A DNA stretch of 64,000 nt, from contig NZ_JACSMA010000002.1 of NCBI RefSeq assembly GCF_018618415.1, positions 558,001 to 622,000 of the forward strand. The letters are read 5' to 3'. Shown in pieces: positions 44,091 through 47,063 of the stretch. A program made the translations under genes and the position numbers. This DNA comes from Exiguobacterium sp. s146. GTDB taxonomy: Bacteria > Bacillota > Bacilli > Exiguobacteriales > Exiguobacteriaceae. Each line of letters starts with the position of its first letter. The first letter of the stretch is position 1. The notes beneath the pieces are model-generated. The model made no database searches. It worked only from the letters and a program-made list of their open reading frames with translations, and had not been told where the DNA came from.

Positions 44091-45788
44091 CTATTTGTTT
44101 CGTCTGTCCTGTTCCGATTCGGCAAGGGGGATGCCGTTTCCTGCTTCGTCGAAGAAAATGTGTGGCTCACTCGTCAACGTCTCGAGCGTCTGCAGCGTCG
44201 CATCGACATCGACCGGCGGCGCGGCTTCTCCCGATTCGAGGACACGCACCGTCTCCCCGAGCTCAATCGTCCGGTCCGTCAAGCGGTGAAACGTCCGGTC
44301 ATGCGAGATGAGAATCAATCCACCTCGATACACCTCGAGCGCGGCCTCGATTTGTTCCCGTGTGGCCACGTCCAAATAGTTCGTCGGCTCATCGAGGGCG
44401 AGCAGGTCCGCGTCCGAGAAGTACAAGATGAGAAAGGCGATCCGGCATTTCTCGCCCATGCTTGCCTCTCGGATTGGCTTATATACCTCATCGCGGCGGA
44501 ACAAGAAGTGGGCGAGCAGCGTCCGCGCTTCCGTCTCGGTGATGTCACTCTCGGCCAGGAGTGCGTCGAGCAACGTTCCTTCTGCTGGCAGTCGGGCGAG
44601 CGTCTGTGAGAAGTAACCGATTTTCAGTTTCGGATGACGCTTGACGTCCCCCACGTCCGGGACGAGTTCACTAATCAATAGTTTTAACAGCGTCGTCTTC
44701 CCGCTCCCGTTCGGCCCGACGATGGAGATGCGGTCACCCCGGTTCACCGTGAACGAGAGCTGTTCAAAGATTGGCTCGTCATAACCGAACGAGACGTTAT
44801 CTACCTCAATCCACGTCTTCGCCTCGAGCGGGTCGGCTTGAAAGCGGACCGAGATGTGGGCCGCCTCTTTCGGACGGTCCGGTCGTGCCGCTTCGAGCTG
44901 TTCGAGTTTTCGTTCCCGGGCCTTCATCTTGATGGCGAGGTTCGCCGCGCCTTTTTGGGCGCCCGGACTTCGCACGCTCGCCGTCGCCTTCGCTTTCAAA
45001 TGCCAGCCCTTGTATTGGGCGATCATGTCGAGCAGTTCTGACTTCCGCGCCATATAGCGAGCATGGGCCCGTTCGTCGCGTACCCGTTCTTCAGCTTTCT
45101 GATGTTTATACGCCGTATAATTGCCCGGATAGCGGACGATCGTCCCCTCATCTAGCTCGAGGATGACCGTCGCGACGTCATCGATGAACTGACGGTCGTG
45201 AGAGATGGCGAGTACCGTCCCCGGAAACTCGTTCACCCAGCGTGTCAGCCATTCAATCGAATCCAAATCGAGATGGTTCGTCGGTTCGTCGAGCAAGACG
45301 ATGTCGACGTGTCGCATCGTGAGCCGCGCGAGTTGGACCCGTGTCTGTTCACCGCCGCTCAACTCACTGAGTCGGCTCGTCTCATGCCCATCAAGACCGA
45401 GCCGTTTGAGTGCTTGCCTCGCCTCCAGTTCGAGCCCGAAGGCTTCGGTCGCGATTGCTTCGTCATACGCCTCGAGCACGCGCTCCGAATCACCGGATGT
45501 GACGGCAACGTATAAGGCATACCGCGCGGAGTCGCCTTGCATGACGTAGTCGAGCGCGGTCGTTTCCCCGTCAAACACCGTCTGTTCGACGACACCGACC
45601 GTGCCCAAGACATCAATCACGCCCGACTGTGGGGACAGCTCACCGACGAGCAGCTTGAATAGCGTCGTCTTGCCGGACCCGTTCTGGCCGAACAAGATCG
45701 CCCGTTCGCCAGCTGCAACGTCGAACGAGACGTTATCGAATAATGGTTGCCGGTCGTGGTCGAACCGGACTTGCTTCATACTTAACAT
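44091..45788 (-). CDS. ABC-F ATPase, likely antibiotic-resistance or translation factor
   Basis: 565 residues with two ABC domains and no membrane segments. First domain: GQNGSGKTT, LSGGEQTRVQLARL, VLLDEPTNHLD. Inter-domain linker about 215-320, Lys/Arg/Glu-rich with PGNYTAYKHQKAEER and GWHLKAKATASVRSPGAQKGAAN. Second domain: GPNGSGKTT, ASMGEKCRIAFL (variant signature) and LLALDEPTNYLD. This is the Vga/Lsa/VmlR-like branch of ABC-F proteins that enter the ribosomal E site and displace antibiotics. The leader peptide and terminator upstream strongly favour a drug-inducible resistance factor. Confidence 0.9.
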   Translation of the reverse strand: MLSMKQVRFDHDRQPLFDNVSFDVAAGERAILFGQNGSGKTTLFKLLVGELSPQSGVIDVLGTVGVVEQTVFDGETTALDYVMQGDSARYALYVAVTSGDSERVLEAYDEAIATEAFGLELEARQALKRLGLDGHETSRLSELSGGEQTRVQLARLTMRHVDIVLLDEPTNHLDLDSIEWLTRWVNEFPGTVLAISHDRQFIDDVATVILELDEGTIVRYPGNYTAYKHQKAEERVRDERAHARYMARKSELLDMIAQYKGWHLKAKATASVRSPGAQKGAANLAIKMKARERKLEQLEAARPDRPKEAAHISVRFQADPLEAKTWIEVDNVSFGYDEPIFEQLSFTVNRGDRISIVGPNGSGKTTLLKLLISELVPDVGDVKRHPKLKIGYFSQTLARLPAEGTLLDALLAESDITETEARTLLAHFLFRRDEVYKPIREASMGEKCRIAFLILYFSDADLLALDEPTNYLDVATREQIEAALEVYRGGLILISHDRTFHRLTDRTIELGETVRVLESGEAAPPVDVDATLQTLETLTSEPHIFFDEAGNGIPLAESEQDRRNK

Positions 45789-45828
45789 ATTGTTTCACCT
45801 CGCTAATTTGTCCGATACGCGATGAAAC

Positions 45829-45859
45829 AAAAAACACCATCCGCAACGTGCGGTGGTGT
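45829..45859 (-). terminator. attenuator terminator in the ABC-F leader
   Basis: 11-bp stem with one bulged base (45834-45845 with 45849-45859) and six U residues on the minus strand, ending 40 bases before the ABC-F start. There is no gene upstream for it to terminate except the 8-residue leader, so it should act on the leader RNA. A competing pairing is described in the findings. Confidence 0.85.
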
Positions 45860-45959
45860 GAAGAGCTCCGGTCAAGCGGAAAGAAGGGTTACCCCCTAAG
45901 CCTGAAATTGGACACACTTCACCCGTGACTGTTCGTGCGAACAGTGATGATTCGTTTCA

Positions 45960-45986
45960 TCAGTTGAGTGAGTGTGACTTTTTCAT
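45960..45986 (-). CDS. 8-residue leader peptide of the ABC-F operon
   Basis: ATG AAA AAG TCA CAC TCA CTC AAC TGA on the minus strand (MKKSHSLN). AGGAAGG lies about 11 bases upstream, and a promoter-like TTGCGA-17-TACGGT lies 35-63 bases upstream. The CACACT inside the coding sequence is complementary to AGTGTG at 45913-45918, which can also pair toward the terminator. Drug-stalled ribosomes on such leaders are the known trigger for ABC-F induction. Confidence 0.6.
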   Translation of the reverse strand: MKKSHSLN

Positions 45987-46020
45987 GGCACGCGGTACCT
46001 TCCTTTCCTAATCTACTGTC

Positions 46021-46049
46021 ACCGTATCAAATTGAAAGCGGATTCGCAA
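46021..46049 (-). promoter_or_regulatory. candidate promoter of the ABC-F leader
   Basis: TTGCGA (complement of 46044-46049), 17 bases, TACGGT (complement of 46021-46026), giving a start point about 30 bases before the leader ATG. Confidence 0.45.
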
Positions 46050-46151
46050 GCGTTGACCCACAATCTCCCACTTTTTCTACACCTTCCGGCGGATGCGAGG
46101 GCGTCGGTCGAGCGGTATGATTAAACCATCTTAGATGATGAGGTGATGATG

Positions 46152-47063
46152 ATGCGATTACGTAACCTACTCGTCCCGAGCGCCGTCTTGGCGAGCGTCG
46201 GTACGTTCTTATATACGCGATTGAAACGAAGACTGCCTCGTCCGGTCTTTAAAGTCCCGGCGTCCAAACCGGACCTCGCCTCGTTCGATGAGACGATGGT
46301 CAGTGCCACCTGGGTCGGCCATTCGACCGTGCTCATCCATTGGTACGGGTTGAAAATTTTGACCGACCCGGTGTTCTCAAACCGAATCGGGGTCCACGTC
46401 GGCCCGGTCACGTTCGGCATGAAACGCCACACCGCGCCTGCCCTCTCCATCGAGGAGATCGGGCACGTCGACGTCATCTTGCTCAGCCACGCCCATATGG
46501 ATCACTTCGACCATAAGAGCCTGAAGCGGCTCATCACCCGCGACACGGTCGTCATCTCGGCACCGGGCACGAGCAAGCTGTTGCGCAAATACCCGAGCCT
46601 GCAGACGCTCGAGATGCATCCACACGACAAGTTGACGCTCGCGAACGGGCTTCACGTCCAAGCCGTCCCCGTCGCCCATTGGGGCAATCGTTTCCCGTGG
46701 GACAAACATATGGGGTATAACGGCTACGTCTTGAAATACAAAGGCGTCCGCATGCTGTTCGCCGGGGACACAGCGTACACCGAGTCGTTCAACGGGCTCG
46801 CCAACAAAGAACCGATCGACCTCGCCTTCTTCCCGATTGGCGCCTATCAACCGGAATCGTTCGAGGAGGCACATTGCACCCCCGAACAGGCGTGGACGAT
46901 GTTCAAACAGAGCGGCGCGAAACGTTTCTTCCCGATGCATTGGGACACGTTCGTCTTATCGTACGAACCGGTCGAGGAGCCGTATGAACGCCTCGTCGCC
47001 GCAGCCAAACTCGAACGTGACCAAATCGTGATCAAGGCGCACGGCGAAAGCATTCGGCTGTAG
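46152..47063 (+). CDS. NAPE-PLD-like metallo-beta-lactamase fold hydrolase
   Basis: 303 residues counted from the last of three tandem ATGs (46146, 46149, 46152), which has GAGGTG at 6 bases. Short N-terminal hydrophobic segment (VPSAVLASVGTFLY), then ATWVGHSTVLIHWYGLKILTDPVF, the metal motif SHAHMDHFD, VAHWGNRFPW and FAGDTAY, ending FFPMHWDTF: the UlaG/NAPE-PLD group of MBL-fold phosphodiesterases. It is paralogous in layout to 52379-53479. Substrate unknown, possibly lipids. Confidence 0.88.
   Translation: MRLRNLLVPSAVLASVGTFLYTRLKRRLPRPVFKVPASKPDLASFDETMVSATWVGHSTVLIHWYGLKILTDPVFSNRIGVHVGPVTFGMKRHTAPALSIEEIGHVDVILLSHAHMDHFDHKSLKRLITRDTVVISAPGTSKLLRKYPSLQTLEMHPHDKLTLANGLHVQAVPVAHWGNRFPWDKHMGYNGYVLKYKGVRMLFAGDTAYTESFNGLANKEPIDLAFFPIGAYQPESFEEAHCTPEQAWTMFKQSGAKRFFPMHWDTFVLSYEPVEEPYERLVAAAKLERDQIVIKAHGESIRL

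Follow-up and report, generated by a model that had tools for sequence, protein, structure and literature searches.

A conserved leader upstream of a Sal-like ABC-F gene in Exiguobacterium has the architecture of a ribosome-mediated transcription attenuator

The window analyzed here is the whole 64,000-nt stretch of the Exiguobacterium sp. s146 genome; its minus strand carries an ABC-F gene preceded by a structured leader, and the gene upstream of that leader is divergent. The elements of the locus, listed in the direction of leader transcription after the divergent gene, are the following.

46143–47063, plus strand: divergent gene for a metal-dependent hydrolase
46021–46049, minus strand: leader promoter, with a −35 element TTGCGA (46049–46044), a 17-nt spacer and an extended −10 element TGATACGGT (−10 hexamer at 46026–46021)
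45998–46008, minus strand: ribosome-binding site of the leader ORF, GGAAAGGAAGG, paired with CCCTTCTTTCC in the predicted repressed fold (minimum free energy)
45960–45986, minus strand: leader ORF (uORF) ATGAAAAAGTCACACTCACTCAACTGA, reading MKKSHSLN and a stop
45966–45976, minus strand: segment 1, CACACTCACTC, within the uORF (including CACACT, 45976–45971); partner of segment 2 in the anti-antiterminator
45954–45961, minus strand: GATGAAAC, at the end of the uORF; predicted partner of GTTTCATC, the 5′ arm of the hairpin that sequesters the ABC-F Shine–Dalgarno sequence
45928–45962, minus strand: two small local hairpins, TGATGAAACGAATCATCA and ACTGTTCGCACGAACAGT, inside the anti-antiterminator (a small hairpin ACTGTTCG-CAC-GAACAGT spans 45945–45928)
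45913–45924, minus strand: segment 2, the switch strand GGGTGAAGTGTG, complementary to segment 1 and to the terminator arm
45904–45917, minus strand: GTGTGTCCAATTTC motif, common to vmlR leaders (there GTCTGCCCATTTTC)
45872–45905, minus strand: upper antiterminator stem, TCAGGC (45905–45900) with GCTTGA (45877–45872), and an apical hairpin AGGGGGTAACCCT (45897–45885)
45880–45885, minus strand: TTCTTT, directly after the apical hairpin, fitting the NusG-dependent pause motif TTNTTT
45878–45888, minus strand: CCCTTCTTTCC, complement of the uORF ribosome-binding site
45855–45863, minus strand: segment 3, CTTCACACC, the antiterminator 3′ arm, overlapping the terminator 5′ arm (CTTCAC at 45863–45858)
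45829–45859, minus strand: intrinsic terminator ACACCACCGCA-CGT-TGCGG-A-TGGTGT followed by TTTTTT (stem 45859–45834 plus six T)
45792–45828, minus strand: SL-4-like hairpin GTTTCATCGCG...GCGAGGTGAAAC over the ABC-F ribosome-binding site GAGGTG (45801–45796)
44091–45788, minus strand: ABC-F ribosome-protection gene (565 aa, Sal-like clade)

A preliminary description of this DNA had proposed the leader ORF, the small hairpin, the switch segment and the terminator, and we recovered all of them base-exactly in the proposed positions. The promoter-like site that it also named is aligned in all 19 Exiguobacterium genomes (TTGCGA-17-TGnTACGGT, 46049–46021), but it is a weak match to the consensus, and a consensus scan with a threshold of 9 of 12 matches returned no site. 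The AGTGTG:CACACT pairing is present as described, although it is merely the center of a far longer predicted minimum-free-energy hairpin (46008–45878), which also encloses the ribosome-binding site and start codon of the leader ORF. Parts that had not been listed before are the sequestered uORF ribosome-binding site, the TTNTTT pause motif and the hairpin over the ABC-F ribosome-binding site. A chance origin of these elements is disfavored by the predicted folding energy of the 191-nt leader (−75.1 kcal/mol versus −50.6 ± 4.2 in 200 shuffles; z = −5.9), and by conservation, since all 19 genomes of the genus keep the elements and all 19 of the sister genus keep an equivalent architecture. A search of the leader against 4227 Rfam models gave no match at the gathering score and none at E values up to 1.

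Two further observations concern the surroundings of the leader ORF. A second, 13-codon frame (MKRIITVRTNSHG, 45960–45919) overlaps the leader ORF stop (TGATG or ATGA) and is open in 19/19 Exiguobacterium genomes. We considered coupled translation through this frame and rejected it, since neither the frame nor its stop is kept in the sister genus; the frame is probably a by-product of the local hairpin. Separately, a block at 46060–46100 (minus strand GGTGTAGAAAAAGTGGGAGATTGTGG), between the leader promoter and the divergent hydrolase gene, equals the promoter in its degree of conservation within the genus, and is possibly a divergent promoter or operator.

The protein encoded downstream matches the ribosome-protection ABC-F model NF000355 with 446 bits against a cut-off of 380. 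In a phylogenetic tree it joins Sal(B) and other ABC-Fs of Bacilli (support 99/98), so that by sequence it counts as a member of the ARE-ABCFs, although the exact placement of Sal(B) is unsure because its row is long and of odd composition. The protein falls outside the clade made up of VmlR and VmlR2 (support 100/100). Since it scored 389.5 bits on the Sal family model NF000169, short of the curated cut-off of 725, we refer to it as Sal-like rather than Sal. Its closest relative of solved structure is Sal(B) (PDB 7p48, E = 2.2e-83), and it resembles Sal(A) and Sal(B) in a gap-free antibiotic-resistance loop (ASVRSPGAQKG.../ASVRSPYAQKQ...). No leader upstream of Sal genes was described in the literature we found, the coverage of which is incomplete, and a plasmid search for close relatives returned only matches below 60% identity. 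The genome has another ABC-F gene (L095, at G000 C1:79221–80738), which scores 451.7 bits on the ribosome-protection model, slightly above the gene in the window.

An ABC-F gene with such a leader was found in all 38 genomes, 19/19 of Exiguobacterium and 19/19 of the sister genus; the sister-genus orthologs have ~48–53% identity to the window protein. A covariance model built from the genus gave a single full-strength leader match per genome, always at the ABC-F gene (19/19; E = 1e-27 to 6e-32). Besides the promoter, the uORF start, the switch strand and the terminator are aligned throughout the genus. The ATG and a short reading frame are kept in every Exiguobacterium genome (MKKSHSLN, MKKSHALN, MKNTRSLQR and others) and in every genome of the sister genus (MKHSLATV, MKQSLVHVA, MKQSLANV, MYTTLANV), the peptide sequence itself being only loosely conserved. 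The sequence of the sister-genus leader has diverged strongly, with the order of its elements kept: AGGAGGT, uORF, two small hairpins, switch strand, TTCTTT and terminator. Nevertheless, the sister-genus covariance model on its own matches the leader of the window (46005–45898, E = 0.0059), and its matches among 301 Bacilli genomes are confined to these two genera. With both models matching at the ABC-F gene, the window leader belongs to an ABC-F leader family of the Exiguobacteriaceae. TTNTTT occurs in the corresponding interval of 15/19 Exiguobacterium and 18/19 sister-genus genomes, and the predicted pairing of the uORF ribosome-binding site has an energy of −12.5 to −20.8 kcal/mol across the 19 Exiguobacterium genomes, with AGGAGGT/ACCTTCTTT as its equivalent in the sister genus. 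One Exiguobacterium locus (L014, in genome G003) was reported with an in-frame TAA in its ABC-F match, which may be just the gene's own end.

The competing pairings converge on a shared segment, GGGUGAAG, which is invariant and can pair in two ways: with the leader ORF, giving the anti-antiterminator, or with CUUCACACC at the terminator, giving the antiterminator. Segments 1 and 2 can form 11 pairs, and 95.7% of the cells of this helix are paired over the 19 genomes; three of the 11 pairs vary, by G–U type changes only, and the variation consists mainly of one-sided changes, which counts against the pairing. The eight pairs between segments 2 and 3 are all invariant in 19/19 genomes. Invariance of the switch strand and of its terminator partner is what a double role predicts. 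More direct support comes from the upper antiterminator stem, where 17 cells changed on both sides, compared with 5.9 ± 2.0 expected by shuffling (0/500 shuffles reached this value), and from the sister-genus fold, a long hairpin comprising the uORF and its neighbors, with 26 such cells compared with 11.1 (0/500); relatedness of the genomes inflates these counts. Controls in which the partners were slid retain this relatedness, yet they fall well below, with at most 64% of cells paired versus 98.7% in the antiterminator. The terminator pairs are also kept, with two compensatory positions. When the halves of the outer helix were swapped between sub-clades we saw no consistent weakening; one swap of the two equaled the native helix in stability, which made this assay uninformative about co-adaptation.

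The best point of comparison is the vmlR leader of Bacillus subtilis, which has been dissected experimentally: its uORF (MIN) lies within an anti-antiterminator hairpin and is followed by a pause hairpin containing TTNTTT, by a terminator and by a further hairpin that covers the vmlR ribosome-binding site, and mutation of the uORF start codon or ribosome-binding site abolishes induction by lincomycin (Takada et al, 2022; PMC9226507). As in a vmlR-type attenuator, the leader of the window has a short ORF with its ribosome-binding site (~11–14 nt from the ATG) inside a 5′ anti-antiterminator hairpin before the ABC-F gene, and an intrinsic terminator between the two. Anti-antiterminator and antiterminator are mutually exclusive through one strand common to the uORF and the terminator arm; between the two folds lies a small hairpin with a candidate NusG-type pause motif, TTNTTT. 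Both leaders also have a hairpin with a competing pairing over the main ribosome-binding site, and the motif GTSTGYCC(A)WWTTC 3′ of the switch strand. They differ in the uORF, which is MIN in vmlR and has 8–9 codons in the window-type leaders, in the sequence of the switch strand, in the uORF ribosome-binding site, which is single-stranded in vmlR whereas it is paired in the repressed fold of the window leader, and in the ABC-F clade of the protein. The leader of cplR in Clostridioides difficile is similar in its uORF-dependent ABC-F induction, terminator and hidden ribosome-binding site, but has a tripeptide uORF (MRI) and a terminator stem that itself hides this site (PMC10201436). For the ABC-F gene msrD of Streptococcus, premature termination is likewise countered by stalling on a leader peptide, although the arrest there is macrolide-specific and the window leader has no such conserved peptide (PMC10314930).

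To mimic a ribosome on the uORF, we folded the transcript up to the terminator 5′ arm while blocking the bases that a ribosome would cover at codon 1, 3 or 5. Without blocking, the expected numbers of pairs were 11.7 for the anti-antiterminator and 0 for the antiterminator; with the uORF blocked they became 0–0.5 and 5.8–7.9, before the terminator 3′ arm is made. The same swap was predicted for four of the five Exiguobacterium leaders tested, the fifth (L014) being mostly in the antiterminator fold at that length even when unblocked. As positive controls we recovered vmlR-like genes, their products being up to 89% identical to VmlR, and the leaders of these genes behaved likewise (from ~14 and 0 to 0 and 7). 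In the complete window leader at equilibrium the terminator prevails over the antiterminator even when the ORF is masked, and the switch must therefore be kinetic, with the antiterminator forming first. Such dependence on the order of folding is usual in attenuation. The two states are closer in the vmlR controls than in the window leader; in the sister genus, the predicted antiterminator varies with the position of the ribosome and the terminator dominates at equilibrium. The proposal that the segment alternates between the leader ORF and the terminator arm is thus supported by the invariance of the shared strand, the compensatory changes in the antiterminator and sister-genus hairpins, the cross-genus covariance-model match and the vmlR-like folding under masking.

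The leader had also been described as apparently distinct in sequence. A vmlR-leader covariance model gave no match at the window leader, and homology by sequence is not proved. The description nevertheless needs qualification because GTSTGYCC is common to vmlR and other Bacilli ABC-F leaders and is similarly spaced from the leader ORF in them. The pattern GT[CG]TG[CT]CC was fixed from the window and vmlR sequences after some of the leaders had been seen, so that the search was not fully blind; among 20 leaders of ABC-F genes from other Bacilli, 8 matched it (5/12 genera), compared with an expectation of 0.3 and a maximum of 2 in 500 shuffles, statistics that rest on leaders and shuffles. Where a uORF was recognized (MK*, MRFDR*, MRKDR*), the motif lies 76–87 nt from its start, compared with 69 nt in the window. 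One explanation would be that the leaders of the VmlR-like and Sal-like clades share across several Bacilli families one old RNA core, absent from Rfam, made of a very short uORF and, 69–87 nt further on, a GTSTGYCC motif immediately 3′ of the switch strand. The attenuator itself would then be ancestral or exchanged, and the motif would have a function beyond base pairing, e.g., in polymerase pausing. We put this forward tentatively, as a possibility with the odds against it. As a separate observation, most of the ABC-F orthologs from other Bacilli families (L075–L094; 40–45% identity) are preceded by a ribosome-binding site and a very short ORF (MK*, MNN*, MKN*, MDIQ*, MRFDR*, MRKDR*, MWTPLFVF*), in several cases with a GTSTGYCC-like motif 75–90 nt later and a terminator; these leaders form a wide, fast-changing family that is not in Rfam.

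Among other readings of the locus, the strongest is that the leader works mainly at translation, through a ribosome-site hairpin opened by the stalled ribosome, with the terminator secondary or serving only to remove leakage. The hairpin over the ABC-F ribosome-binding site is stable (−11.8 kcal/mol), both of its arms are near-invariant in 19/19 Exiguobacterium genomes, and it has a predicted competitor of nearly the same energy, the 11-bp duplex GATGAAAC:GTTTCATC (−11.7 kcal/mol); moreover, translational attenuation alone is enough in cplR (PMC10201436). However, the terminator and antiterminator hold conserved and compensatory pairs, and the sister genus retains both while lacking an equivalent hairpin, the one 3′ of its terminator leaving the ABC-F ribosome-binding site uncovered. 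We therefore regard a mainly translational mechanism as unlikely. Much less probable is a ligand- or protein-binding leader (a riboswitch, a T-box or a target of an RNA-binding protein) whose ORF is there only by coincidence. A conserved, structured leader of over 100 nt would suit it, and the invariance of the ATG and Shine–Dalgarno sequence could be structural, but the Rfam search was empty, the inner loops differ between the genera while Shine–Dalgarno sequence, ATG and short frame are kept in 38/38 genomes, and related Bacilli leaders carry ORFs down to MK* at the same place. We give very little credence to a classical amino-acid attenuator, in which the peptide would sense a shortage of charged tRNA instead of a drug: the competing folds have the geometry known from biosynthetic attenuators, but no residue is enriched or kept among peptides such as MKKSHSLN, MKNTRSLQR, MKHSLATV and MYTTLANV, and the controlled gene encodes a ribosome-protection protein. 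Equally implausible is an unregulated terminator or processing hairpin, e.g., against upstream read-through: the terminator is indeed strong and thermodynamically favored, but the neighboring upstream gene is divergent, and a constitutive terminator would have no need of a compensating antiterminator stem.

On the basis of sequence, conservation, compensatory changes and competing folds, we conclude that the leader is very probably a ribosome-mediated transcription attenuator controlling the Sal-like ABC-F gene, with a probable translational layer. In the absence of drug, ribosomes would complete or leave the 8-codon ORF, and the leader would fold as the single long hairpin, locking up the switch strand, so that the terminator would form. 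In the presence of drug, a ribosome stalled on the first codons would block the long hairpin, the freed switch strand would pair with CTTCACACC, on the 5′ arm of the terminator, and transcription would continue into the ABC-F gene, the polymerase being perhaps delayed by a pause at TTCTTT. Leaky translation would be curbed further by the hairpin that covers the ABC-F ribosome-binding site, which the GATGAAAC:GTTTCATC pairing may open. Judging from the Sal-like protein, the variable short leader peptide and general knowledge of Sal, the most likely inducers would be pleuromutilins, lincosamides and streptogramin A.

This kind of attenuation is already known, and the evidence supports well that the Exiguobacterium leader is a further example of it. 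The resistance genes under ribosome-stalling control would thereby come to include a Sal-like ABC-F gene from an environmental genus, and the 38 diverged leaders offer a natural set for testing how a switch strand changes under the constraint of two partners. Should the GTSTGYCC core prove real, one RNA family might serve to locate drug-inducible, intrinsic resistance genes across many genomes of Bacilli, and the joint evolution of regulators and ABC-F clades would become a question that can be asked.
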